This document shows, one piece after another, positions 6,505 to 32,579 of a stretch of 32,771 bases of DNA (the stretch's first letter is position 1; the number at the start of each line of letters is the position of its first letter). The stretch is from positions 1 to 32,771 of the IMG/VR virus record IMGVR_UViG_3300033182_000883. The stretch is one strand, 5' to 3'. Origin of the DNA: a virus. Made by a program: the position numbers and the translations under genes. The notes below the pieces were generated by a model that saw only the letters and a program-made list of their open reading frames with translations, was not told where the DNA came from and ran no database searches.

Positions 6505-7076
6505 TATAGTCCTGCCGTTTGGTCGCCTTGTGGCTCGCCAATCATTCGCGTTACTGTTTGGCCGCGAGTCTTAACTTGTTTATACCATTTAGAATTGCGT
6601 AGCTCGTTTGCTGCTGTTTTCCAGTCACCCTTAGCCGCAGCAGCACTAAACTTTGGAAACTTCTTGTGCCAACTGCCGCCCATGTTATATGTGAGATCTA
6701 CCATAGCACGACGCTGTTTTGGCGATGCAAGATCCCAACCAGGAGTTTTGGTTGCTGCTTGATAATGATGATCAAAATCTTTGTCAAACAATTCGTCTGC
6801 TTGTTGCTGCGTGATACCAGCAGAATAATCTTCACCTGGCTTTACCAAATGACCATACCCGATGGTATCTAAACCTAGTGTATCTTTGTACACTTCAAGG
6901 CGGTTGCCTTCGTGCTGTTTAATCATGCTCTTTAGAGCATCAACATCGCCTACTGCTGCGTATGGATCTTGGTCCGCAGTTGCTTCTGCTATTTGTGTGG
7001 TTGCTAATACACCAGCAACTGTAAATTCTCTTGCTCGCATCTTAACTAGTTTTATTACCTTTTGTAAGAGAGACAT
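6504..7076 (-). CDS. GH24 lysozyme (T4-lysozyme type) with an N-terminal extension
   Basis: Peptidoglycan hydrolase. 'HEGNRLEVYKDTLG' and 'TIGYGH' give E56, D65 and T71, with exactly the spacing of T4 lysozyme E11, D20 and T26. The C-terminal 'QTVTRMIGEP' is also typical. ATG at 7076 was chosen because GGAG lies 6 bases upstream; an ATG at 7088 is also in frame and one at 7040 follows the upstream stop. The extra N-terminus (about 45 residues) contains 'MRAREF' and 'QIAEA', which resemble the capsid-targeting leader and prohead-protease site of T4 internal proteins. It overlaps the sigma-like gene by 35 bases. Confidence 0.9.
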   Translation of the reverse strand: MSLLQKVIKLVKMRAREFTVAGVLATTQIAEATADQDPYAAVGDVDALKSMIKQHEGNRLEVYKDTLGLDTIGYGHLVKPGEDYSAGITQQQADELFDKDFDHHYQAATKTPGWDLASPKQRRAMVDLTYNMGGSWHKKFPKFSAAAAKGDWKTAANELRNSKWYKQVKTRGQTVTRMIGEPQGDQTAGL

Positions 7077-8307
7077 CCATATCTCCATTTTTCTCTGCTA
7101 GCCATTGGTCCATCAATGACTCTACTGTAGGATCGTTTGCTGGCTTCTTAGTAGAAGCAGGCATTGGACGCTTAGACGAAGTTGTCTGCAGCGACTTAAT
7201 AGGTTGATCGATAGTATTGCTTGGCTTTGGTGTTTGCTGAATCTGTGGTTTCATTTCAGGACGATAATCGCCTAAACGTTTCTCAGCATTAGCACGGTTT
7301 TGCATTTGTACTTCTGGAGACTTTTTGCTGGTTGCTTTAGTGCCTGCTTCTCGTGCTGCATCGTGTGCTGCTTTGTCGCGGATCTTTTTAGTAGCCAGGT
7401 AGCGAATAATAGTTGGAATTCCAATCTCGTTTAGTGGTTGTTGCTTTTCTTGTTGCCATTGATCCATCAACTCTTGCTCTACCGCTTCGTTTTTCTTTTT
7501 GGCCATTTTAGTAGCCGTTGCGTATTTCACAGACTCCCAGTCTTTGCCATAACGCTTTTTAAATTCTTTGTCTGGAAGATCGTCCGCATACTTGTCGCGT
7601 GTTTTGATTTCTTTTTTAGATAGTTTACGCTCTGGTACTTCTTGCCTCATAGTAGAATTTAGGTAGTCTTCGCGTTTCTTTTGAATCTTATCATCGCGGT
7701 CCTGGTGCATTTTTGATAACTTGATATTCTTTTGGCGTTGTCCAAACCAGTTTGGATTATCCACATCTCTATTAAACAACGGGCTGTCTACTTCAGGTTT
7801 CCATATTTTGTTAACACTAATAGATGTTCTTAATTTGTTTAATGCTTTAGTCTCAATTTGACGTATTCGTGTTTGATCTACTCCAAATTCTTTTGCAATG
7901 CTTGCTAGAGTCTGCTCATCACGCCCGTATAATCCAAAACGTTTGATGAGAACAACTTTTTCTCTGGTGTTAAGAATTTCCTTGCCAGTCTTATCTGTTG
8001 TGGTTAACATATTAGCGATTACTTTTTCTAACTGCTCTTTTCGAATAGCATCAAGCATTTCTTCGTCACTGTAGGACATTGTTGGATCCAATGGCTCAAG
8101 TTCTACTTCATCGTCTGCTTCTGGTAGCAGATTCTTTTCTTGTAGTTTACGATTGATCTCACGAATGTTTTGTTTAATCAAGTCGCGTGTGTATGGGTCT
8201 TTTGCTTTGCGTAGCATATAGATCATATCTGTTAGATCATCTACTAAGTCCTGATTTGACCTGTCTGCTTCCACTAATTGTTGTAATAATTGGTTAATAC
8301 GATCCAC
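7042..8307 (-). CDS. Sigma70 region 4 domain fused to a long charged tail
   Basis: 421 aa, GTG start with GAGG 7-8 bases upstream. Residues about 110-160 ('LNTREKVVLIKRFGLYG', then 'LASIAKEFGVDQTRIRQIE', 'KALNKLR') are a textbook sigma70 region 4, the helix-turn-helix that reads the -35 element. No region 2 is evident. The remaining 260 residues are highly charged and low in complexity. They include 'SVKYATATKMAKKK' and two related repeats, 'ELMDQWQQEK' (about 281-290) and 'SLMDQWLAEK' (about 397-406). It could redirect host RNA polymerase or be packaged. First gene of the minus block, behind a late-type promoter. T4's known late factor gp55 has no such region 4, so the arrangement is unusual. 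Confidence 0.8.
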   Translation of the reverse strand: MDRINQLLQQLVEADRSNQDLVDDLTDMIYMLRKAKDPYTRDLIKQNIREINRKLQEKNLLPEADDEVELEPLDPTMSYSDEEMLDAIRKEQLEKVIANMLTTTDKTGKEILNTREKVVLIKRFGLYGRDEQTLASIAKEFGVDQTRIRQIETKALNKLRTSISVNKIWKPEVDSPLFNRDVDNPNWFGQRQKNIKLSKMHQDRDDKIQKKREDYLNSTMRQEVPERKLSKKEIKTRDKYADDLPDKEFKKRYGKDWESVKYATATKMAKKKNEAVEQELMDQWQQEKQQPLNEIGIPTIIRYLATKKIRDKAAHDAAREAGTKATSKKSPEVQMQNRANAEKRLGDYRPEMKPQIQQTPKPSNTIDQPIKSLQTTSSKRPMPASTKKPANDPTVESLMDQWLAEKNGDMDVSLTKGNKTS

Positions 8308-8329: not shown

Positions 8330-8337
8330 TATTTATG
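8330..8337 (-). promoter_or_regulatory. T4-late-type promoter (CATAAATA) for the minus-strand block
   Basis: CATAAATA read on the minus strand, one base from the T4 late consensus TATAAATA. It lies 22 bases before the GTG start at 8307 and abuts the -35 of the divergent plus-strand promoter. Confidence 0.65.
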
Positions 8338-8366
8338 TTGACTTCAGGCCTAAATAATGTTATAAT
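8338..8366 (+). promoter_or_regulatory. Sigma70-type promoter giving a leaderless mRNA
   Basis: TTGACT at 8338-8343, 17-base spacer, TATAAT at 8361-8366. The first base after the usual 6-base gap is the A of the ATG at 8373, so the transcript should have no 5' leader. No Shine-Dalgarno sequence is present. Confidence 0.85.
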
Positions 8367-8372
8367 AATCCT

Positions 8373-10876: not shown

Positions 10877-11558
10877 TGGATGCTCACATAGCGCAGCAGC
10901 AGAAGCAGTAAATCAACACGCATTTGCCTGCGACGACGGACAACTGTGGATGATGGGACGAGCTCCACATCCAGATAATGCCAAAGTGTCGTGGGGTCGC
11001 AAAACAGCAAACATACTAAAACTCAACCTACACCTTGATGCTGAATCAGCAAGTTCTAACTACCGCATTATTCGCACCACAGAAGATTGGTTAAACAGAC
11101 ACCCAAGTCACAAGGACGCTATCCTTGCTATACAGTGGTCAACATGGGAAAGAGAGGAGTGGCTAATAGATGGTGAATACTACCAGGTTAACGCAAGTGG
11201 CATTGACATGGTTCCAGAAAGTGCGCAAGAGCGTTATAAAGAATATATTCTCAATGTGGACTGGAACCAAAAGACTCTTGAGTGGCATGATACGATATGG
11301 AACTGGCACCAAGACCTACTTGGACGCGGAATCAAACATCTGTTTTTTAACGGCAACAGTACTTTTGCTGATGTGGGAGATCGTAAAGATTGGGGCATTA
11401 ACTATATTGACCCTTATGGTGATCTTACCTTTGATTCATACATAAGATCGCAGGGCATTGACACTGTAATGCCAGGATCGTACCATTTTGGTCCAGATGG
11501 ACACACTGCTTGGGGCAAATATTTCGCACACGAACTGGTTGACCGCAAGCTCGTCTAA
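10860..11558 (+). CDS. SGNH hydrolase-like protein, copy 2
   Basis: 232 aa, similar in layout to the preceding protein: 'LYINGCSHSAAAEA' in place of the GDS block (Cys before the candidate Ser), 'SASSNYRIIRTTEDWL' as the Asn block, 'KHLFFNGNSTF' matching 'PHLFFNAFELF' of copy 1, and 'GSYHFGPDGHTAWG' as the C-terminal His block. The pair look like a tandem duplication that has diverged. Whether both are active is unclear. Confidence 0.6.
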   Translation: MILYINGCSHSAAAEAVNQHAFACDDGQLWMMGRAPHPDNAKVSWGRKTANILKLNLHLDAESASSNYRIIRTTEDWLNRHPSHKDAILAIQWSTWEREEWLIDGEYYQVNASGIDMVPESAQERYKEYILNVDWNQKTLEWHDTIWNWHQDLLGRGIKHLFFNGNSTFADVGDRKDWGINYIDPYGDLTFDSYIRSQGIDTVMPGSYHFGPDGHTAWGKYFAHELVDRKLV

Positions 11559-11567
11559 TGCTATAAT
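11539..11567 (+). promoter_or_regulatory. Sigma70-type promoter giving a leaderless mRNA
   Basis: TTGACC at 11539-11544, 17-base spacer, TATAAT at 11562-11567, then exactly 6 bases to the ATG at 11574, the same geometry as at 8338-8366. It lies inside the end of the SGNH-like gene. No Shine-Dalgarno sequence. Confidence 0.85.
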
Positions 11568-11573
11568 AGCACT

Positions 11574-12572
11574 ATGAAATACATACTTGTTGATACTGCG
11601 AATACATTCTTTCGCGCTCGCCATGCTGCATTCCGTGCGGCTGATCTTGACACCAAATTAGGCTTTGCCCTGCACGTTACGCTTGCTGCTGTAAACAAGG
11701 TAGCCAAAAAGTTTGACGCAGACCATGTTGTATTTTGTTTAGAAGGACGTAGTTGGCGCAAAGACGTATACGAACCATACAAAGCAAACCGTAAAGTAGC
11801 CCGTGCTAAACTAACTGATTCAGAAATTGAAGAAGATGAGTTGTTTTGGGAGATTTATGAGGATTTGACTAAATACTTGCGAGAGCAAACAAATTGTTCT
11901 GTTCTCCGTCATCCTCAAGCCGAGGCAGACGACCTTATTGCCCGGTGGATCGCTTTGCATCCTGCAGACGACCACATCATTTTAAGTAGTGACACAGATT
12001 ATGTGCAACTACTCTCACCTCAAGTTATGCAATATAACGGTATCACAGAGGAACTACATTCCCTTGACGGCATCTTTGATGACAAAGATAATAGAGTAAT
12101 TGACAAAAAAACTAAGGAGCCAAAGGAGATCCCCAATCCAGAATGGCTTCTCTTCAAAAAATGCATGCGAGGCGATACATCGGACAATATTTTTAGTGCC
12201 TATCCAGGTGTACGAGAAAAGAGTACAAAGAAAAAGGTAGGCTTACTAGAAGCGTTTGAGGATAAGACCAAGCAAGGATACGCTTGGAATAACCTAATGT
12301 TACAACGATGGACGGACCATGATGGTAACGAGCATCGTGTAATTGATGATTATCAGCGCAACGTTGAACTAATTGATCTAACTGCACAACCACAAGAATT
12401 AAAAGACCTATTTGATGCTTCTATTGCAGAGGAAGTCACCACACAAGACATAGGTCAAACAGGCATTCGCTTTATGCGATTCTGTGGTAAACACGACTTA
12501 CAACGTATTTCAGAACAAGCAGCAGATTACGGACGTTGGCTAGGTGCGACATACAAAGGACATTTAGAATGA
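11574..12572 (+). CDS. 5'-3' exonuclease, T4 RNase H / FEN family
   Basis: 332 aa. Removes RNA primers or 5' flaps during lagging-strand replication. Metal-binding acidic blocks are in order: 'ILVDTANTFFRARHA', 'VFCLEGRSWRKDVYEPYKAN', 'PQAEADDLIARW', 'LSSDTDYVQLL' and 'CMRGDTSDNI'. These match T4 RNase H and the 5' nuclease domain of Pol I. Followed by an ATGA overlap. Expressed from a near-perfect sigma70-type promoter, fitting an early replication gene. Confidence 0.88.
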   Translation: MKYILVDTANTFFRARHAAFRAADLDTKLGFALHVTLAAVNKVAKKFDADHVVFCLEGRSWRKDVYEPYKANRKVARAKLTDSEIEEDELFWEIYEDLTKYLREQTNCSVLRHPQAEADDLIARWIALHPADDHIILSSDTDYVQLLSPQVMQYNGITEELHSLDGIFDDKDNRVIDKKTKEPKEIPNPEWLLFKKCMRGDTSDNIFSAYPGVREKSTKKKVGLLEAFEDKTKQGYAWNNLMLQRWTDHDGNEHRVIDDYQRNVELIDLTAQPQELKDLFDASIAEEVTTQDIGQTGIRFMRFCGKHDLQRISEQAADYGRWLGATYKGHLE

Positions 12573-13224: not shown

Positions 13225-13238
13225 CATAAATATATGCT
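13223..13238 (+). promoter_or_regulatory. Late-type promoter box within a hairpin
   Basis: AGCATA (13223-13228) and TATGCT (13233-13238) form a perfect 6-bp inverted repeat. The late-like box CATAAATA lies at 13225-13232, 6 bases before the ATG at 13239. No Shine-Dalgarno sequence lies in the gap, so a leaderless transcript is possible. Confidence 0.55.
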
Positions 13239-13526
13239 ATGAGTCGTCCTAAACCTGAGATCTTAGTAGAATCTGCAGATCGCACAACATTTAAATCAGA
13301 ACAAGTTCTTGCCAGCGAAGGTATATGGACAGTGTTCTACGATGGTCGTCCTATTAACCTACGATCAATGCCAATGTTAGCAGCACACTCAGGACCTAAG
13401 TATAAGAAAGTATCATTTTCAAATCCTGGACATGCTATCAATCTTGCTAAAAAGCTCAACAAGCAGTTTAAAACAGACCTATTCACAGTGGTGTTATTAA
13501 ATGCAGGCGAGCAAGTATATCCTTAA
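13239..13526 (+). CDS. Conserved hypothetical protein, 95 aa
   Basis: Small mixed alpha/beta protein ('WTVFYDGRPINLRSM', 'YKKVSFSNPGHAINLAKKLN'). It carries no obvious catalytic residues. Its start sits directly behind the late-type box with no ribosome binding site. Overlaps the next gene by 26 bases. It resembles small proteins in T4-like marine phages, but I cannot name it. Confidence 0.65.
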   Translation: MSRPKPEILVESADRTTFKSEQVLASEGIWTVFYDGRPINLRSMPMLAAHSGPKYKKVSFSNPGHAINLAKKLNKQFKTDLFTVVLLNAGEQVYP

Positions 13527-14916: not shown

Positions 14917-15132
14917 ATGGAGCTAGATGCTCGAGGTTTAAACTGTCCACTACCAATCCTTCGCGCTAAGAAAACTATCGCAGGAATGGAATCAGGAGAG
15001 ATTCTAACTATTATTGCTACCGACCCAGGTAGTGTAAACGACTTTGCTTCGTTCTGTAATCAAACAGGACACTCACTACAAAAGTCGGGTCAACTAAATG
15101 GCGAGTTCCATTTTGAGATTAAGAAAAAATAA
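14917..15132 (+). CDS. tusA: TusA-family sulfur carrier
   Basis: 71 aa, near the usual 75-80. N-terminal 'LDARGLNCPLPILRAKKT' is the family signature with active-site C10 in Cys-Pro-x-Pro. TusA proteins carry persulfide sulfur from a desulfurase or rhodanese to partners in tRNA thiolation or sulfur oxidation. AAGGAG is close upstream. Directly followed by a DsrC gene, a pairing known in bacterial sulfur metabolism. The C-terminus is a little shorter than in host forms. Confidence 0.88.
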   Translation: MELDARGLNCPLPILRAKKTIAGMESGEILTIIATDPGSVNDFASFCNQTGHSLQKSGQLNGEFHFEIKKK

Positions 15133-15143
15133 GGAGATATACT

Positions 15144-15458
15144 ATGGCAGATTATGCAGTAGATGAAGAAGGCTACCTAGCCAACATTAACGATTGGACT
15201 CCAGCAATTGCAGAAGACCTAGCAGCAGACGAGAAGATTGAACTAACTGATCGTCACTGGGATATCATTAACTTCCTACGTGAGTACTATGAAGAGTTTC
15301 AAATTGCTCCAGCAGTTCGTGTACTAACAAAAGCAGTAGGCAAGAAGTTTGGTAAGCAGTACGGTACTTCAAAGTATTTGTACGAACTATTCCCATATGG
15401 CCCAGGCAAGCAGGGTTGTAAAATCGCAGGCCTACCAAAGCCAACAGGTTGTATCTAA
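15144..15458 (+). CDS. dsrC: DsrC/TusE family protein with both C-terminal cysteines
   Basis: 104 aa. Family blocks: 'DEEGYLANINDWTP', 'LTDRHWDIINFLREYY', 'SKYLYELFPYGPGKQGC' and the C-terminal arm 'IAGLPKPTGCI'. Both redox cysteines are present: C92 and the penultimate C103, ten residues apart. The two-Cys form is typical of true DsrC, which carries sulfur as a trisulfide for dissimilatory sulfite reductase; TusE (tRNA thiolation) has only the last Cys. Coupled to tusA (11-base gap, AGGAG upstream). Related dsrC genes are known from viruses of marine sulfur oxidisers. Confidence 0.92.
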   Translation: MADYAVDEEGYLANINDWTPAIAEDLAADEKIELTDRHWDIINFLREYYEEFQIAPAVRVLTKAVGKKFGKQYGTSKYLYELFPYGPGKQGCKIAGLPKPTGCI

Positions 15459-15490: not shown

Positions 15491-15868
15491 ATGAAAAGGC
15501 TATTAACTATTTTGGTTGTAGCCTTTTTCTTTGTAACAACAACTATAAACGCCAAAGAAGAAGGTACACACAACGACCAACAGTTCGTGAATCCGCAGAT
15601 TCCGTGCAACCAGTGGGATATGATTACTCACAACCTAGTAAACGATTATCAGGAGTTTCCTGTAGCAGATGGCACTTCTGCTCTAACCATGCAAGATGGC
15701 ACAGTATTTGGCGGCACACTTGTATTTTTTGTTAACAAAGACACCAGCACATACACAGTGGTTGTCCATTTTGAGGACGTGAATTTGGGCTGCGTAATTG
15801 GCGCAGGCGAGAATTTTGCGCCTGCAGGCAAGAAATATCTGGAACTTTTAGGTGCTGTAAAGATGTAA
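15491..15868 (+). CDS. Exported protein, 125 aa
   Basis: Clear signal peptide (about residues 1-21, ending 'TTTINA'). Mature part of about 104 aa with two Cys ('PQIPCNQWDM' and 'DVNLGCVIGAG') that could form a periplasmic disulfide. Beta-rich middle ('FGGTLVFFVN', 'YTVVVHFEDV'). AAGGAA about 9 bases upstream. No family recognised; likely periplasmic or secreted. Confidence 0.7.
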   Translation: MKRLLTILVVAFFFVTTTINAKEEGTHNDQQFVNPQIPCNQWDMITHNLVNDYQEFPVADGTSALTMQDGTVFGGTLVFFVNKDTSTYTVVVHFEDVNLGCVIGAGENFAPAGKKYLELLGAVKM

Positions 15869-15875
15869 TTAAATA
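15868..15875 (+). promoter_or_regulatory. Late-type promoter box, leaderless geometry
   Basis: ATTAAATA overlapping the previous stop codon, then 5 bases to the ATG at 15881. No Shine-Dalgarno sequence fits at a normal distance. Confidence 0.5.
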
Positions 15876-15880
15876 CAGGC

Positions 15881-16816
15881 ATGAAACCTGCCTGTTTGCG
15901 AATTACTGGTCCAACTATTTTTGAGTTTGACAGTTTCCTGGACCCTGTGTGTGCCATTATTGACGATCACGTTGGCCATGATGGAAATCGTGCAGGATTT
16001 GATCATTTAAATCATTTAATTACAAAATCCCCCAATACTCGGGTATTCATTGAATATTGCAATTCTAATGAGTGCGACACTGCTATACCCATTCCCTGGT
16101 GGGCAATTCAAGAAGTAGAACGACTTAAAAAGCACCCAGAAGCAATGTGGACTGAAAAGACTTCCGCATTTAGCTTTATGATCAACAAACTTAGGCATAG
16201 CCGAGAATTTCTAATGCGGCTACTTGACGAATTGGATATTAGCACCACAACATACTCGCTGGTCTCTTCAGAATTTAACAACCACAAACCAAAGTACTGG
16301 GAACATAGCGATTCTATAACGCTAAAAGACTCTATTAACAATCATAGCTATAGTAACATTGCGATATACAATCAATACACAAGAGATCACATATTTTTCA
16401 CTTCGTATGTGCATTTAATTACCGAACCTGGTTGGCTTGAAGAATCAACATTTATCACTGAAAAAAGCATATTTCCTTTTGATGCAGGTAATATTCCAAT
16501 TTGGTGCGGCGGCTGGAAACAACCATCATATTTTAGAAAAATGGGCTTTGATGTGTTTGACGATATTGTTGATCACAGTTATGAAGATTTAAATAGCCCC
16601 AAAGAACGTATTGTACAAGCCGTTGTGCGTAATAAAAACTTGTTAAAAAACAAGCACTTAGCGGCAGAATTTTTTAACAAAAATCGCGACAGATTTGAGG
16701 CTAACCGTAAACTATTACGGTCAGATTACTTGCTTGATTTTTATGTTAATAAAATCAATGACTTACAGCTAGACGACTACTATAAGAAAAATCTATTAGA
16801 ATTGCTGTACGCATAG
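15881..16816 (+). CDS. Glycosyltransferase-like protein, 311 aa
   Basis: The C-terminal third shows a block seen in many phage and viral glycosyltransferase-like proteins: 'STFITEKSIFPFDAGNIP' (Thr-Glu-Lys), 'GFDVFDDIVDHSYEDL' and a trailing Arg. The block resembles the donor-binding half of GT10-type fucosyltransferases. The N-terminal part has no clear motif. It sits alone behind a late-type box, so it may modify sugars late in infection. Moderate confidence for the family, none for the substrate. Confidence 0.5.
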   Translation: MKPACLRITGPTIFEFDSFLDPVCAIIDDHVGHDGNRAGFDHLNHLITKSPNTRVFIEYCNSNECDTAIPIPWWAIQEVERLKKHPEAMWTEKTSAFSFMINKLRHSREFLMRLLDELDISTTTYSLVSSEFNNHKPKYWEHSDSITLKDSINNHSYSNIAIYNQYTRDHIFFTSYVHLITEPGWLEESTFITEKSIFPFDAGNIPIWCGGWKQPSYFRKMGFDVFDDIVDHSYEDLNSPKERIVQAVVRNKNLLKNKHLAAEFFNKNRDRFEANRKLLRSDYLLDFYVNKINDLQLDDYYKKNLLELLYA

Positions 16817-21090: not shown

Positions 21091-21987
<897 letters not shown>

Positions 21988-23804: not shown

Positions 23805-24624
23805 TCCAATTCCAAACACAATTGAGCTACTGGGCAAGGATCCTTTTTTAACATCTATTAGAAATAAAATTATTTCTGGTGAACTGCGTTGCACGTCTGA
23901 TAATCCACATCAAGAATTTGTATCTAAGATGGACCAATGGGTTCAAAAGCATGATCATTTCAAACTCAACGGGTTAAACGCATTTCCAAACACCGACGTG
24001 ATTATTGGATGCCACCATTACCTTGATGGCTTATTAATACAGCACGGGATCAATGGAATCCAAGTGGTTGATCACGATTATCGATACTATAGTCGACTGG
24101 ATCCCACCAAAACATGGGCAGTGCCAGGTGAATTAGAGCCAAACACACCGCTAGTTATTGCAACACCGTTTCCTGGCTATCTAGGGCTACATCCAGACTT
24201 TGACAACTTACTTGATGAAGCAGAACAGAAGAATATTGATGTACACCTAGATATGGCCTGGCTTAGTGCCAGTAAAGGTATTGAAATTGATGTTAACAGG
24301 CCCTGTATTAAAAGTATTGGCATTAGTCTTACAAAAGGCTATGGTGCTTCCTGGAATCGTGTGGGCATTCGTTACACAAAAACAGTCAACGAGCATGATC
24401 CAATTACTATATTCAACGGTGTTAATATGTGCCCTGATGCTGTAGTAAGAAATGGAATACTACTACTTGAAAATATCCCAAGTGGATATTTGTGGGATAC
24501 CTATGAAAATCAGTATCTAGGACTGATTGACCAATACAACCTAGATGTTGGCAATATTATTTTTGCCGCATATGGCAAAGATAGAATTATATACTCACTG
24601 AGTCACTTGTACTTAGAGTCATAA
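23794..24624 (+). CDS. Fold-type-I PLP aminotransferase-like protein, 276 aa
   Basis: ATG at 23794. 'IDVHLDMAWLSASKGIEID' looks like the Asp strand of class I/II aminotransferases and 'SIGISLTKGYGASWNRVGI' the Schiff-base Lys with following Arg. It is shorter than the usual 380-400 aa; the small domain seems reduced. Likely paired with the upstream oxygenase-like gene. Family call moderate, activity unproven. Confidence 0.5.
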   Translation: MSSDPIPNTIELLGKDPFLTSIRNKIISGELRCTSDNPHQEFVSKMDQWVQKHDHFKLNGLNAFPNTDVIIGCHHYLDGLLIQHGINGIQVVDHDYRYYSRLDPTKTWAVPGELEPNTPLVIATPFPGYLGLHPDFDNLLDEAEQKNIDVHLDMAWLSASKGIEIDVNRPCIKSIGISLTKGYGASWNRVGIRYTKTVNEHDPITIFNGVNMCPDAVVRNGILLLENIPSGYLWDTYENQYLGLIDQYNLDVGNIIFAAYGKDRIIYSLSHLYLES

Positions 24625-24627
24625 ATA
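24620..24627 (+). promoter_or_regulatory. Late-type promoter box, leaderless geometry
   Basis: CATAAATA, then 5 bases (CTCTT) to the ATG at 24633. Overlaps the upstream stop codon. No Shine-Dalgarno sequence. Confidence 0.7.
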
Positions 24628-24632
24628 CTCTT

Positions 24633-25058
24633 ATGCGTCTCGAAGAGTTTATAACCCCAACACTATTTGAATCTGTTCTCGTTACAGAATGGATTCTAGT
24701 TGAAGGTAACATATACAAAGGTCGTCTATTTGACAAAACAGTTGCTCGCTTTATTAAAGATCCTCAAGTTACTGCAAAACTAGATGAGTTTATAGCATTT
24801 AAAAGTGCTAACCCTGGTGAGCCGTTTGGTGCTAAAGATTATCCAATGGTAAAGAAAGGTCCGTTTGGTGTAGTGGATGGTTTGCGACATGCTGCTTTAT
24901 CTCAAGACGTGAGTGTGTTTTATTCAGTAAAGGGCGGTGACCTAAAGTTATACGGCCTGTTCACACACAAAGAAGCAGGTATTGGCAATACACCTAATAT
25001 CAAAACTCAAAAGCAACTTGCCAAGACAATGAAGAAGCAAGACTTTAATGAGTACTAA
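24633..25058 (+). CDS. RelE/YafQ-like protein with possible capsid-targeting leader, 141 aa
   Basis: Residues about 72-115 ('VKKGPFGVVDGLRHAALSQD', 'VSVFYSVKGGDLKLYGLFTH') follow the pattern of RelE/YafQ toxins: basic loop, Gly-Leu-Arg-His, a Tyr strand and a Thr-His. The N-terminus 'MRLEEFITPTLFES' resembles the capsid-targeting leader of T4 internal proteins, with LFE/S as a possible prohead-protease site. No antitoxin gene is obvious nearby. Both calls are weak on sequence alone. The leaderless late promoter fits a virion protein. Confidence 0.45.
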   Translation: MRLEEFITPTLFESVLVTEWILVEGNIYKGRLFDKTVARFIKDPQVTAKLDEFIAFKSANPGEPFGAKDYPMVKKGPFGVVDGLRHAALSQDVSVFYSVKGGDLKLYGLFTHKEAGIGNTPNIKTQKQLAKTMKKQDFNEY

Positions 25059-25242
25059 ACACAACAGCCCAGAAAACTCACAAGAGGGTTGTCACGATAT
25101 TGACTTATGCGAAGGCGGTGTTGACTACCTAGCAGCATGGGATGGTTCAGATGCTCCTGATTGGGCCAATCAACGTTCGTGGTATGTCTCAGGTAAGTGG
25201 GATTTAGAACATGACGAATTATCAGTCAACAGTTTTTTCTAA
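25048..25242 (+). CDS. Small acidic protein, 64 aa
   Basis: ATG at 25048, 11-base overlap with the previous gene. Sequence 'CHDIDLCEGGVDYLAAWDGS' and 'WYVSGKWDLEHDEL'. Acidic, two Cys, aromatic. Its position behind the RelE-like gene is where an antitoxin could sit, but it has no recognisable antitoxin domain. Confidence 0.55.
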   Translation: MSTKHNSPENSQEGCHDIDLCEGGVDYLAAWDGSDAPDWANQRSWYVSGKWDLEHDELSVNSFF

Positions 25243-25249
25243 TTAAATA
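25242..25249 (+). promoter_or_regulatory. Late-type promoter box
   Basis: ATTAAATA overlapping the previous stop, 8 bases before the ATG at 25258; no Shine-Dalgarno sequence. Confidence 0.4.
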
Positions 25250-25257
25250 CACTCAAT

Positions 25258-26109
25258 ATGATTCTTACTTTTACTAACATCAAAGATCCCAACGATGTAG
25301 TTGACCTGCGCCTAGAGCCTATAGACAACCAGGTAGTTCATTCCTGGATTGAATATGTACTGTCAAAAGAGGCAACTATGACGGCGGTTCGTTGGCGCGT
25401 CACTGACCAGTGTACAAAATTCAGTATTGGCCATTGCATCGAAAAGTGTACTCAAGCCATTGCAGAACTTGATAAACTTGGCTTACACTGTCCGTATCCT
25501 GTTCCAGAAGAAGATCGTATAGATCAAAAATGGTGTAATCGAGCACATCGATGGTTTACACATCAGTCAAAACGGATGAACCAATTCAGTCGAAATACAT
25601 CTAAAGAATCAAAATGGTTACAACAGCTAAACCACTTTATACACAAAATGGAAGATAACTTCCCTATACATACTGATTGGGAAGCAGATTATGAAATAGC
25701 AGCAGTAGACAGCAACCCAAACTATAATGGTACTGGATGGTGGTACTTCCCATTCAACGAAGTAGTGCGAAAAGACTACCACAGTGCAGATCATTATCAT
25801 GTAATTCTGTGTTCTGAGATCTTAGGAAAATCTACATTGAAATCATTCATTGACGGAGACGATCCTAATGACTGGGACACTAGTGGTCACGACACCAGTT
25901 TTGGTGGAATAAACATTTGTGTAACTGATAGTCGACAGAAGTTATACCAAAGCGAAGAATTCCAACAATGGCTAGATCTCAACAATGCTACTAGCGAAGA
26001 TGTATATTATGATTTTCCAATTGGAAATATTGCTAATATTGACGAGGCTCAAGATCTGCTCAGGCGCATGGATCAAGAAGAATTTACTCTAACATATCAT
26101 AGAGAATAG
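25258..26109 (+). CDS. Hypothetical protein, 283 aa
   Basis: No recognised domain. Begins 'MILTFTNIKDPNDVVDLRLE'. Trp/His/Asp-rich central section ('NFPIHTDWEADYEIAA', 'GWWYFPFNEVVRKDYHSADH') with many possible metal ligands, and 'DTSFGGINICVTDSRQ'. Soluble. Could be a metalloenzyme, but no known motif. The gene is followed at once by the promoter for a tRNA-like element. Confidence 0.65.
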   Translation: MILTFTNIKDPNDVVDLRLEPIDNQVVHSWIEYVLSKEATMTAVRWRVTDQCTKFSIGHCIEKCTQAIAELDKLGLHCPYPVPEEDRIDQKWCNRAHRWFTHQSKRMNQFSRNTSKESKWLQQLNHFIHKMEDNFPIHTDWEADYEIAAVDSNPNYNGTGWWYFPFNEVVRKDYHSADHYHVILCSEILGKSTLKSFIDGDDPNDWDTSGHDTSFGGINICVTDSRQKLYQSEEFQQWLDLNNATSEDVYYDFPIGNIANIDEAQDLLRRMDQEEFTLTYHRE

Positions 26110-26324: not shown

Positions 26325-26921
26325 ATGAAAGATAAAGTTATCCTAGTAGACGCAGACGGCGTACTGTTAGATTGGGTATATGCTTTTGACCGCTGGATGG
26401 CACGTCACGGCTATACTATTCACGATCCTACTGACTACTTGATGAGTGTTAAGTATCAGTTAGAGCATAAGGAATCGCGCAAACTGATTCGTATGTTTAA
26501 CGAGAGTGCAAGTATCCGCAAGATTCCGCCACACAAGGACGCAATCAAGTGGGTTAAAAAACTACACACAGACCACGGCTATGTGTTCCATTGTATCACA
26601 TCACAAACAGATGACGAGTATGCTCAACACCTACGCAAAAAGAACCTACAAGAACTGTTTGGTCCTAGCGTGTTTGAAACATTTGAAATCCTGCCCTGCG
26701 GTGCTGACAAAGATGGTGCACTAGTCAAATATAAAGGCACAGGATGCCTCTGGTTGGAAGATAAACCGGAAAATGCTGTTGTAGGTTATGAGTTAGGTTT
26801 GCGAGCAGTTTTGATGGACCATATCCATAATAAAGACTTCTCGCATCCAGAAATTCCGCGAGTTAGAAACTGGCAAGAGATGTATAGCCTCGTGCTTAGT
26901 CAAGATACTTCCAACCACTAA
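26325..26921 (+). CDS. HAD-superfamily phosphatase (deoxyribonucleotidase-like)
   Basis: 198 aa. Motif I 'LVDADGVLLDW' (two catalytic Asp), motif II around 'HCITSQTDDEYAQHLRKKNL', motif III/IV 'GCLWLEDKPENAVVGYELGL' and a Lys between. Layout fits the 5'(3')-nucleotidase subgroup. May remove phosphate from nucleotides during host DNA turnover. AAGGAA upstream. Its 3' end overlaps a convergent homing endonuclease gene by 26 bases. Confidence 0.8.
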   Translation: MKDKVILVDADGVLLDWVYAFDRWMARHGYTIHDPTDYLMSVKYQLEHKESRKLIRMFNESASIRKIPPHKDAIKWVKKLHTDHGYVFHCITSQTDDEYAQHLRKKNLQELFGPSVFETFEILPCGADKDGALVKYKGTGCLWLEDKPENAVVGYELGLRAVLMDHIHNKDFSHPEIPRVRNWQEMYSLVLSQDTSNH

Positions 26922-27543
26922 CACCGCGTTTGATGCGACCGCCTAGTGCTTCAGGCGTTATGCCTAGTGCTTTAGCAGCGGCGTTTCGACTTTTGTATAT
27001 TGTTCCATCAGGACTTATGCAAGGTCGAGATAACGATTCGCTAATCTTTTGTTTAGTTAACTTTGTAGGAGATTTTCGAGACTTAATAATTCTTCCAGGA
27101 GTAAACCCAGCAGGTTGTGTTCCTTCTGAAACATAGATGGTCTCTTTGCCGTTGGTATACCATTTGAGATTTTGTTCTGCTACTGCGCTTCTTCCATACA
27201 TTGAGTTGCGTTTGCCGGATGTATCTCTTTTTGATATGCCTTCTTTATAGGCGTCGCATTGCGAAGTATCGCCCCCGTCGCCCGATTCAGGAATACAGTT
27301 TGCAAATGTTTGATCATTTACTACGTTCCATAATTGAGAATAGTAAAGACCTTGATGTTTTATTTCCAATGGATCAGTTGACTCAAATAATACTTTTGTA
27401 TCAACGTCATTGCCGTGTTTATTTAGATGGCGGCGCCAACGAGTTCCAGATCCACGATATTCATATGGATCCCGGACTGTTTTGCCAAGATACTTTAAAC
27501 CTGTTTGGCGATGAGTTTTTAAGTAGAGATAAATCTTTTGCAT
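26896..27543 (-). CDS. GIY-YIG-like homing endonuclease with NUMOD3 and IENR1/NUMOD1 modules
   Basis: 215 aa from the ATG at 27543. Residues 4-45 ('IYLYLKTHRQTGLKYLGKT', 'GSGTRWRRHLNKHG') are a GIY-YIG-type nuclease variant. 'GKRNSMYGRSA' (about 110-120) is a NUMOD3-like DNA-binding motif. The C-terminal 'SPDGTIYKSRNAAAKALG' is an IENR1/NUMOD1 helix-turn-helix. It runs opposite to its neighbours, typical of a mobile free-standing endonuclease gene. A longer frame from 27594 overlaps the DUF3310 gene and is less likely. Expected to be transcribed from a leaderless late box. Confidence 0.82.
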   Translation of the reverse strand: MQKIYLYLKTHRQTGLKYLGKTVRDPYEYRGSGTRWRRHLNKHGNDVDTKVLFESTDPLEIKHQGLYYSQLWNVVNDQTFANCIPESGDGGDTSQCDAYKEGISKRDTSGKRNSMYGRSAVAEQNLKWYTNGKETIYVSEGTQPAGFTPGRIIKSRKSPTKLTKQKISESLSRPCISPDGTIYKSRNAAAKALGITPEALGGRIKRGVSGWKYLD

Positions 27544-27548
27544 AAATT

Positions 27549-27556
27549 TATTTATG
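27549..27556 (-). promoter_or_regulatory. Late-type promoter box for the homing endonuclease, leaderless geometry
   Basis: CATAAATA on the minus strand, then 5 bases (AATTT) to the ATG at 27543: same geometry as at 24620. Part of a palindromic stretch (27541-27556). Confidence 0.7.
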
Positions 27557-27920: not shown

Positions 27921-28328
27921 ATGGCAACACGTTCAATTATCGCAGCAGAGTTTGACGCAGAAATGGGCGGCAACATTGTAGCAACTTACTGTCACTATGA
28001 TGGCTACTTAGAAGGTGTTGGCACTACTCTGCTTCGCAACTTCAACGATTCAGAGAAGGCATTTGCTATCGCTGATATGGGCTACTTGAGCTGTTTGTAT
28101 GATACAGTTGAAGAAAACGCTGATCCAACTGAGTTTGGACACGGCGGCCACGCTAACAACGATGATCCAGCATACTTTGACGATGCTGCGGATATTGAAG
28201 CAAACCTAACCAACTATGGTGCAGAATTTGCTTACTTGTTCAAAGACGGCAAGTGGTTTGTGTTTGATCGTTACAACAACCCAAACTGGACGTTGCTTGA
28301 TCGTACTGCGGCAGCAGCAACTCACTAA
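27921..28328 (+). CDS. Conserved phage hypothetical protein, 135 aa
   Basis: N-terminus 'MATRSIIAAEFDAEMGGNIV' and 'TYCHYDGYLEGVGTTLLRNF' are typical of a widespread phage protein family of unknown function (Met-x-Thr-Arg-Ser, then His-x-Asp-Gly-Tyr). Acidic. It has its own strong promoter and ribosome site, so it is probably abundant early. Confidence 0.75.
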   Translation: MATRSIIAAEFDAEMGGNIVATYCHYDGYLEGVGTTLLRNFNDSEKAFAIADMGYLSCLYDTVEENADPTEFGHGGHANNDDPAYFDDAADIEANLTNYGAEFAYLFKDGKWFVFDRYNNPNWTLLDRTAAAATH

Positions 28329-28334
28329 TAAATA
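28327..28334 (+). promoter_or_regulatory. Late-type promoter box
   Basis: AATAAATA at the end of the previous gene, followed by a ribosome site (TTAGGAA) and the ATG at 28348. Here a short leader exists, unlike the leaderless cases. Confidence 0.5.
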
Positions 28335-29954: not shown

Positions 29955-30251
29955 ATGGAACTAAACAGAGATGGCGATGGATTCTTAGTTGACATGAACG
30001 ACTGGACTCCTGAAGTAATGAACGCTATGACCGAGGCAGACGGTGTAGAGCTAACCGAAGAAATGGTTAATCACATCAACCTTGCTCGCGAAATGTACGA
30101 GGAATCATCAATGGTACCTCGCATTAAAGACTTTGGCAAAGCACTAGGCTACGACCGTAAAGCAAAGCCATTGTACGATGCTTGGAAATCAGGCCCTATG
30201 AAGCAAATCGCAAAATACGGTGGCTTGCCAAAGCCAACTGGTTGCGTATAA
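29955..30251 (+). CDS. DsrC/TusE-like protein with one C-terminal cysteine
   Basis: 98 aa. Shares with the protein at 15144 'GDGFLVDMNDWTPEV', the helix pattern and the C-terminal arm 'GGLPKPTGCV'. Only the last Cys (C97) is kept; the position of the second Cys (86) is Ala, as in TusE-type proteins. This form acts in tRNA thiolation relays (TusA to TusBCD to TusE to MnmA) or as a regulator. AGGAGAT upstream. The phage thus has two DsrC types. Confidence 0.88.
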   Translation: MELNRDGDGFLVDMNDWTPEVMNAMTEADGVELTEEMVNHINLAREMYEESSMVPRIKDFGKALGYDRKAKPLYDAWKSGPMKQIAKYGGLPKPTGCV

Positions 30252-30261
30252 GGAGTAGGAA

Positions 30262-30348
30262 ATGAATACAATCTACCAACTGTGGTTGGACAAATGTCCA
30301 CTACCAAAGATGTACCGATTCGTGAAGAGTCAGATTGGCAAAAAATGA
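30262..30348 (+). CDS. Mini-protein with Lys-Cys-Pro-x-Pro motif, copy 2
   Basis: 28 aa, AGGAG upstream. 'LWLDKCPLPKMYRFV' matches 'FWYVKCPTPRIWRWV' of the 37-aa protein at 14792-14905. Both sit next to DsrC-family and other sulfur genes. C12 begins the Cys-Pro-x-Pro motif. Confidence 0.55.
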   Translation: MNTIYQLWLDKCPLPKMYRFVKSQIGKK

Positions 30349-30375
30349 AACGCCACGTAGCATAGGAGAATACTC

Positions 30376-30645
30376 ATGGACTTATGTGCTAAAGTAAAAG
30401 ATTATGTACGCCAAGGATGGCGACTGATTGATGTTCGCACACCTGCAGAATATGCAAGCGGACACATTGAAGGTGCGGAACTGGTTCCAATGCAGGACGT
30501 TCCAAACCTCGCAGAAGGAAAGTATCTAGTGTATTGCCGTTCAGGAGCACGTTCTGGCTCAGCAGCCGCATACCTAGAAAGCAAAGGATTAGAAGCAATG
30601 AATATTGGCGGTATCAACCAATTCATTGCCTGCTTAAAACACTAA
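30376..30645 (+). CDS. Single-domain rhodanese
   Basis: 89 aa, similar to GlpE/PspE-type rhodaneses. Active-site loop 'CRSGARS' with C54; 'LIDVRTPAEYASGHIEGA' is the conserved N-terminal block. Transfers sulfur from persulfide or thiosulfate to acceptors such as TusA or IscU. AGGAG upstream; iscU follows after 11 bases. Confidence 0.93.
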   Translation: MDLCAKVKDYVRQGWRLIDVRTPAEYASGHIEGAELVPMQDVPNLAEGKYLVYCRSGARSGSAAAYLESKGLEAMNIGGINQFIACLKH

Positions 30646-30656
30646 GGAGAACAGCA

Positions 30657-31031
30657 ATGGCCTATTCAGACAAAGTTATTGATCATTACGAGAATCCACG
30701 CAATGTGGGCAACTTGGACAAAGACGCTAAAAATGTTGGCACCGGAATGGTAGGTGCTCCTGCGTGTGGCGACGTTATGCGACTGCAAATTCAAGTAGAC
30801 GATGGTGTCATTACTGATGCTAAGTTTAAGACCTATGGCTGCGGTAGTGCCATTGCTAGTTCATCCTTGCTTACAGAATGGGTAAAAGGCAAAACACTAG
30901 ACGAAGCACAAGAGATTAAAAATACTCAAATCGCAGAAGCACTAGAGTTGCCGCCTGTTAAGATTCACTGTTCAGTACTGGCAGAAGATTGTATTAAGGC
31001 TGCTATTGCAGACTTGAACAGCAAGCAATGA
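30657..31031 (+). CDS. iscU: Fe-S cluster scaffold IscU
   Basis: 124 aa, full IscU length. Cluster ligands C37-x-D39, C62, H104-C105, and the chaperone-binding 'LPPVK' (98-102). It assembles [2Fe-2S] clusters with sulfur from a cysteine desulfurase; no iscS is in the window, so host IscS or the rhodanese would supply sulfur. AAGGAG upstream, ATGA overlap with the next gene. Confidence 0.95.
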
Positions 31032-31348
31032 TTACAGTTACTGAGCAAGCAGCACAAAAGATGGCAAGCAGTCTTGCTGCTCGTGGCCAAGGCATAGGCA
31101 TTCGCTTGGGTGTACAAACATCAGGATGCTCAGGCTATGCCTACAAGATAGAGTTTGCAGACTCAGTAGAAGACACAGACACAGTGTTTGAAGACAAGGG
31201 TGTAACTGTTGTAGTTGACAACAAAAGTCTTGTGTATCTAGCAGGCACAGAAGTTGATTACGGCAAAGAAGGTCTCAACGAAGGTTTTCGTTTTAATAAC
31301 CCTAACGTCAAAGACGAATGTGGTTGTGGAGAAAGTTTTACAGTTTAG
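31028..31348 (+). CDS. A-type Fe-S carrier, IscA-like
   Basis: 106 aa. Three conserved cysteines: C34 in 'TSGCSGYAY', C98 and C100 in 'ECGCGESF'. Takes clusters from IscU to client proteins. Starts inside the iscU stop. HesB/IscA/ErpA family. Confidence 0.93.
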
Positions 31349-31357
31349 GAGAACACA

Positions 31358-31681
31358 ATGGACGTAACTAACGAAGCAGTACGAAAGATTATTGATATAC
31401 TACAAGGTGATCCAGAACTAGAAGGCATGGGCTTGCGTGTTGGCATTGTAGGCGGTGGTTGTTCTGGCTTCCAATACAACTTTACATTTGACAAGCCAAA
31501 CGAAGATGACTGGACTATTCCTCTTGGCGATTATACTTTTATGATTGACCCAATGAGTTATATGTACTTGAATGAAGCAACGCTGGACTACAAAGAAGAT
31601 CCACTACAAGGTGCTTCATTTGTGGTTAACAATCCCAATGCACAAACCACCTGCGGATGTGGTTCATCGTTTAGTGCGTAG
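31358..31681 (+). CDS. A-type Fe-S carrier, ErpA/IscA-like, second copy
   Basis: 107 aa. C35 in 'GGGCSGFQYNF', C99 and C101 in 'TCGCGSSF'. More divergent from the first copy ('MSYMYLNEATLDYKEDPLQG' block is ErpA/HesB-like). Two A-type carriers behind one iscU copy part of a bacterial isc layout. AGGAG upstream. Confidence 0.93.
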   Translation: MDVTNEAVRKIIDILQGDPELEGMGLRVGIVGGGCSGFQYNFTFDKPNEDDWTIPLGDYTFMIDPMSYMYLNEATLDYKEDPLQGASFVVNNPNAQTTCGCGSSFSA

Positions 31682-31701: not shown

Positions 31702-31709
31702 ATTAAATA
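31702..31709 (+). promoter_or_regulatory. Late-type promoter box, leaderless geometry
   Basis: ATTAAATA, then 5 bases (TTGTT) to the ATG at 31715. Preceded by a small AACTC/GAGTT inverted repeat. Confidence 0.6.
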
Positions 31710-31714
31710 TTGTT

Positions 31715-31933
31715 ATGACAGACAATAACCCTCTTATTAAAAATCTAGTTGATGCAAGCAAAGACCTATTAGGTTCATCCAACGACCTGGTCAAGCGTAG
31801 CAAGCAACTATCAAAGCACTCAGATAACGAAGAACTCAACGAAATGGTTCGCCAAGCAGCACTTCAAGCGGTGGACATTATTGAGCGCACAGAAGCCATC
31901 CTAATGGCCATACAATACCTCAAAAAGAAATAG
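31715..31933 (+). CDS. Small helical protein, 72 aa
   Basis: Begins 'MTDNNPLIKNLVDASKDLLG' and is helical with heptad-like spacing ('NDLVKRSKQLSKHSDNEELN', 'ALQAVDIIERTEAILMAIQY'). Function unknown. Leaderless late box upstream. Confidence 0.6.
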   Translation: MTDNNPLIKNLVDASKDLLGSSNDLVKRSKQLSKHSDNEELNEMVRQAALQAVDIIERTEAILMAIQYLKKK

Positions 31934-31944
31934 GCGTAGATAAT

Positions 31945-31967
31945 GCACTAAAGTAGTGCTATAAATA
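31945..31967 (+). promoter_or_regulatory. Hairpin plus perfect T4 late promoter
   Basis: GCACTA/TAGTGC hairpin (31945-31959) directly followed by TATAAATA (31960-31967). Next gene starts at 32004 behind AAGGGA. A 12-base motif before it (31933-31944) also occurs at 22975-22986. Confidence 0.75.
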
Positions 31968-32571: not shown

Positions 32572-32579
32572 CATAAATA
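32572..32579 (+). promoter_or_regulatory. Late-type promoter box
   Basis: CATAAATA, then AGGAG and ATG at 32605. Late-type box with a normal leader. Confidence 0.6.

Follow-up and report, generated by a model that had tools for sequence, protein, structure and literature searches.

Is the 8-base box CATAAATA at 24620..24627 (+), which ends five bases before the ATG of a 141-aa gene with no assigned function (24633..25058, +), a T4-type late promoter that gives an mRNA without a leader? Late transcription in T4 is standard textbook material, and its promoters feed leaders that carry a Shine–Dalgarno (SD) sequence. The window, by which we mean the whole stretch of 32,771 bases analysed here, is a virus record and a fragment, and genome-wide counts were made in related contigs of up to 328 kb. 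Its 5′–3′ exonuclease (11574–12572) has 80 related loci, including contigs of 328, 300, 138, 135 and 119 kb, and shares ~50% identity with its counterpart in cultured jumbo phages, PA5oct and RaK2 among them. For comparison we used the genomes of T4, KVP40, S-PM2, BUCT-ZZ01, PA5oct, HTVC008M, Mosig and Melnitz and 400 kb of Atu_ph07. Genes were called in every genome by the same simple longest-ORF script.

Six window genes have CATAAATA or ATTAAATA close to an ATG, with gaps (bases between box and start codon) of 5, 5, 5, 5, 6 and 8. The sequence-only reading had placed boxes exactly five bases before the ATG at 15881, 24633, 27543 (minus strand) and 31715 and two more at six and eight bases (13239 and 25258), all without an SD sequence. 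We located all six, and no gene among them carries an SD core at the usual distance. Besides 24620..24627, the gap-5 boxes are ATTAAATA at 15868..15875 (+), upstream of a 311-aa gene (15881..16816, +) that matches nothing in PHROG or Pfam, CATAAATA at 27549..27556 (−), upstream of a homing-endonuclease-like gene (26896..27543, −; phrog_314), and ATTAAATA at 31702..31709 (+), upstream of a 72-aa gene (31715..31933, +); all four genes are predicted to be leaderless late genes. Near-leaderless late genes are predicted behind CATAAATA at 13225..13232 (+), gap 6 to a 95-aa member of the MSRPKP family (13239..13526, +), and behind ATTAAATA at 25242..25249 (+), gap 8 to a 283-aa gene (25258..26109, +). 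A direct search of viral contigs returned no close relatives of genes 24633 and 25258; a box-bearing homologue of gene 24633 is 42% identical, and the L003/G011 homologue retains the box, at gap 4.

A further four window boxes are of the leadered kind, an SD lying in each case between the box and the start codon: 8330..8337 (−; gap 22 to GTG 8307 of a sigma region 4 protein), AATAAATA at 28327..28334 (+; gap 13, SD taggaa, to ATG 28348), TATAAATA at 31960..31967 (+; gap 36 to ATG 32004) and CATAAATA at 32572..32579 (+; gap 25, SD taggag, to ATG 32605). TATAAATA is the T4 late box itself, with which CATAAATA and ATTAAATA agree in 7 or 6 of 8 letters. The window is not enriched in the box 7-mers (13 seen, 19.8 expected); what is non-random here is the position of the box, not its abundance. 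When the 60 bases before the 45 ATG-started window genes were shuffled in 5000 trials, gap 5 occurred on average 0.03 times (maximum 2) compared with four genes observed, and gaps 4–8 occurred 0.15 times (maximum 3) compared with six.

The box-to-ATG count against chance that the sequence-only reading had proposed was run on the relatives, and the distances there are not random either. Across 13 related records, TAAATA-to-ATG distances peak sharply at gap 5 (37 cases) and gap 4 (19), are nearly absent over gaps 9–15 (8 in total) and form a broad hump at 16–30. After collapsing these records into 133 protein families, gap 5 retains 30 and gap 4 retains 10, and no other gap exceeds 10. A scan of all hexamers by position ranks TAAATA at gap 5 as the third most position-locked, behind two forms of the SD sequence, with 39 occurrences against a background of 4.6. 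The first two letters of the box vary (CA, AT, GA, AA), and families keep box and gap despite changed spacer bases, for example TAAATA-cccat-ATG and TAAATA-ctcgt-ATG.

The gap-5 layout is not general to T4-like phages. With the same gene-calling test, T4, KVP40, S-PM2 and BUCT-ZZ01 have no gap-5 box, and PA5oct and the 400 kb of Atu_ph07 have two each. Of the phages that infect Pelagibacter, an ocean bacterium, HTVC008M has 11 (p ~3e-10 for TAAATA at gap 5) and Mosig 6; Melnitz has 3. Whole-genome pattern counts agree with this when set against a reversed control (14 vs 4 in HTVC008M, 11 vs 3 in Mosig); for Melnitz the count is 5, compared with 3 in the 6-mer-reversed control. T4 and KVP40 lack any box 4–8 bases before a gene start, whereas the group studied here has a large class of this kind. 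The layout is a variant of T4 late promoters that our test did not detect in T4, in KVP40 or in either cyanophage.

Close and distant boxes differ in what follows them. In the relatives, an SD precedes 10% of gap 4–5 genes, 0% of gap 6–8 genes and 81% of gap 16–30 genes; for the whole gap 4–8 class the value is 7%, compared with about 80% in the distant class. Start codons at gaps 4–5 are ATG in 60 of 69 genes, the remainder being GTG (7) and TTG (2). We examined the expected transcription start in the leadered class, where a start codon cannot bias the outcome: 58% of these promoters have A as the sixth base beyond the box, the same share as in T4 and KVP40 together (58%), and the fifth base is mostly a pyrimidine. 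T4 late promoters, which depend on gp55, gp33 and gp45 and likewise have no −35 element, carry the same type of box at −13 to −6 (PMC2988020). The first transcribed base should therefore be the sixth after the box, and a gap of 5 puts the A of the ATG in this place; from this spacing we infer a start at that A, and transcripts from the box at 24620..24627 are predicted to begin with the A of ATG 24633. The sequence-only claim about where transcripts begin is supported as a prediction, with the limit that gaps 6–8 would leave 1–3 bases of leader rather than exactly none. Gap 4 needs a start one base upstream of the T4 position.

The apparatus of T4-type late transcription is partly recognizable in the relatives. 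A gp55 homologue (phrog_234, E about 1e-25) is present in G001, G002 and G004, and its profile matches the solved T4 gp55 (7d7c, E 5e-16); gp55 is absent from the 33-kb fragment that forms the window. These homologues measure ~304 aa, with a long N-terminal extension, and are thus about 120 aa longer than the 185-aa protein of T4. A further difference from T4 is that the sliding clamp gp45 was undetected by its family, phrog_223, in the jumbo relatives and also in PA5oct and RaK2, an absence likewise reported for jumbo phage CBB (PMC5259590). Likeness to T4 extends from the preference for A as the sixth base beyond the box and the gp55 homologue to the targets, since a baseplate wedge protein and virion proteins are among the products of gap 4–5 genes in the relatives.

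The T4-type promoter reading is supported by boxes locked in position in 133 families, by the trough at gaps 9–15, by SD loss confined to the close class, by the preference for ATG, the missing −35 element, the gp55 homologue of the relatives and the structural targets, and by orthologues that pair the same box with an SD leader. We conclude that the boxes are very probably genuine T4-type late promoters whose mRNAs have no leader or almost none, with starts deduced from sequence. Mis-called ATGs, with true starts further downstream and ordinary leaders, would produce a similar picture, and in the G001 homologue of gene 13239 the gap-3 ATG is indeed spurious and an SD-led start lies at gap 18. 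In general, however, SD-led in-frame starts within 30 codons downstream are no more frequent than in ordinary genes (6/72 vs 55/549), and N-termini are conserved among orthologues from the gap 4–5 ATG onwards, which makes systematic mis-calling improbable. Composition is a weaker candidate still: AT-rich spacers combined with the stop–start spacing of operons could place TAAATA at a fixed distance, and in 7/60 gap 4–5 cases, including 24622–24624, the box's TAA doubles as the stop codon of the gene before it. Yet other AT-rich hexamers have no comparable peak, save frames overlapping the box, and neither the depletion at gaps 9–15, the zero counts in T4, KVP40, S-PM2 and BUCT-ZZ01 nor the window shuffles, which stay below the observed numbers, fit a chance origin, which we consider extremely improbable.

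The boxes could also be −10 elements of host-type sigma70 promoters, the more so as this phage group has leaderless sigma70 promoters with TATAAT at gap 6. The two types differ in their upstream elements: a match of at least 5/6 to TTGACA at −35 distance accompanies only 1–2% of late boxes, compared with 65% of TATAAT elements lying 5–7 bases from an ATG. TAAATA and ATAAATA misfit TANNNT, and the same box stands with SD leaders before late-type genes, as in T4, in a group that has a gp55 homologue; we hold a sigma70 identity to be quite unlikely. Little probability also attaches to expression mainly from upstream read-through by SD-independent internal initiation, with the adjacent promoter as an accessory. 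This would agree with the 29/60 gap 4–5 boxes that lie within 60 bases after a same-strand stop codon, but it leaves unexplained both the exact spacing of 4–5 bases and the restriction of SD loss to the close class.

Under the T4-type promoter reading, host RNA polymerase carrying the phage gp55 sigma factor would use the 8-base TATA box, begin transcription at the A of the ATG or 1–3 bases before it and thereby yield an SD-less mRNA that would be translated by the leaderless, 5′-terminal AUG route. One box would then serve two layouts: (i) abutting the start codon (gap 4–8, no SD) or (ii) usually at least 16 bases away with an SD leader. As an expected consequence, SD-less genes would be near-silent on read-through RNA and expressed only from the late promoter. 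More tentatively, the layout may be a regulatory device, in which an SD-less AUG is hardly translated within read-through RNA and is translated as the 5′ end of a late transcript, so that promoter choice is the switch; as a possibility that we rate below even chances, such a device would replace the SD-hiding hairpin of T4-type genes and would have had separate origins in the jumbo group and the Pelagibacter phages.

The family of gene 13239 contains both layouts. We compared 33 distinct upstream regions, that of the window included; 30 of them combine the box with a longer spacer (mostly 17–22 bases) and an SD, and the box stands without leader or SD in the remaining three, namely those of the window (gap 6), L011 (gap 5) and L132 (gap 8). 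On the exonuclease tree, where L132 was placed through L012 of the same contig, these three occupy separate branches among leadered neighbours, and the leader therefore appears to have been lost three times in this family. For the leadered relatives (L002–L081), folding gives a hairpin around the late box, with the box in or near the loop and the SD paired; the modelled hairpin would hide the SD in read-through RNA. This resembles T4 e, soc and 49, whose SD is hidden in read-through RNA and free in late transcripts (PMC3014915). Unlike in those genes, the hairpin is no genome-wide rule here, and the leaderless members have no SD at all: an SD- or AUG-hiding hairpin spanning the box was unsupported genome-wide when compared with shuffled left flanks, folding giving it for the 13239 family only. 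RNAalifold returned no consensus pairs for the 13239-family hairpin, the aligner having left the arms unaligned.

Leaderless promoters of a second type occur in the same genomes. In the window, a predicted leaderless sigma70-type early promoter consisting of TTGACC, 17 bp, TATAAT and 6 bp (11539..11573, +) abuts ATG 11574 of the exonuclease and is conserved in orthologues; a counterpart with TTGACT and the same spacings (8338..8372, +) abuts ATG 8373. Exonuclease orthologues on several branches have TTGAC-17-TATAAT-6-ATG without an SD, and others have a promoter further upstream together with an SD. Gap 6 is the commonest distance from TATAAT to ATG in the group (15 cases), and these viruses appear to use leaderless mRNAs both early and late.

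The phage lambda cI transcript from PRM is a leaderless mRNA. This case, mentioned in a survey of bacterial leaderless genes (Zheng et al. 2011, PMC3160421), shares with ours a leaderless phage transcript but concerns one repressor gene of a temperate phage, compared with the dozens of leaderless late genes predicted here. Bacterial leaderless genes have TANNNT about 12 bases before the ATG (PMC3160421); as in the close class, the promoter abuts the start codon, there is no SD and ATG is preferred. They use a sigma70-type −10 element of the host, a type also present in this phage group as TATAAT-6-ATG, whereas the close class uses the phage late-sigma box. AR9 was considered as a precedent and rejected, its leaders being 26–491 nt long (PMC5312081). 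A literature search whose coverage lacked most subscription journals and all preprints turned up no description of leaderless late genes of the T4 type, and this silence is weak evidence of novelty.

The window contains a set of sulfur and iron–sulfur genes (14917–15458, 21103–21354 and 29955–31681), identified by sequence as TusA, two DsrC-like proteins, ferredoxin, rhodanese, IscU and two IscA-like proteins. This set suggests a sulfur-oxidising gammaproteobacterial host, and the assignment is only suggestive, its identity resting on one comparison, in which the window IscU is 90% identical to a protein of a gammaproteobacterial MAG. Leaderless genes in Gammaproteobacteria have been reported mainly for Xanthomonadales and Legionellales (PMC3160421). 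In 11 candidate host-like bacterial genomes, TATAAT is not clearly enriched at six bases from ATG, and the lack of this enrichment in the candidate gammaproteobacterial genomes gives no support to efficient leaderless translation by the host.

Late promoters fused to start codons would thus occur in two marine phage groups; since one group is represented in culture, by HTVC008M and Mosig on Pelagibacter, leaderless translation during phage growth becomes directly testable. The layout would alter the annotation of late promoters and start codons in marine phages, and it may bear on a published late-promoter search in pelagimyophages that was unsuccessful (PMC7029224); despite that search, HTVC008M and Mosig have late boxes at gap 5 to ATG.

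The protein behind the leadered box at 8330..8337 (7042–8307, −) contains a sigma-70 region 4 domain, and a search of cultured phages gave no match to it. The relative G002 encodes a 744-aa protein (L092:3115-5349, −) that matches a virion family as well as the sigma family of the window protein, and sigma region 4 may travel inside the virion.
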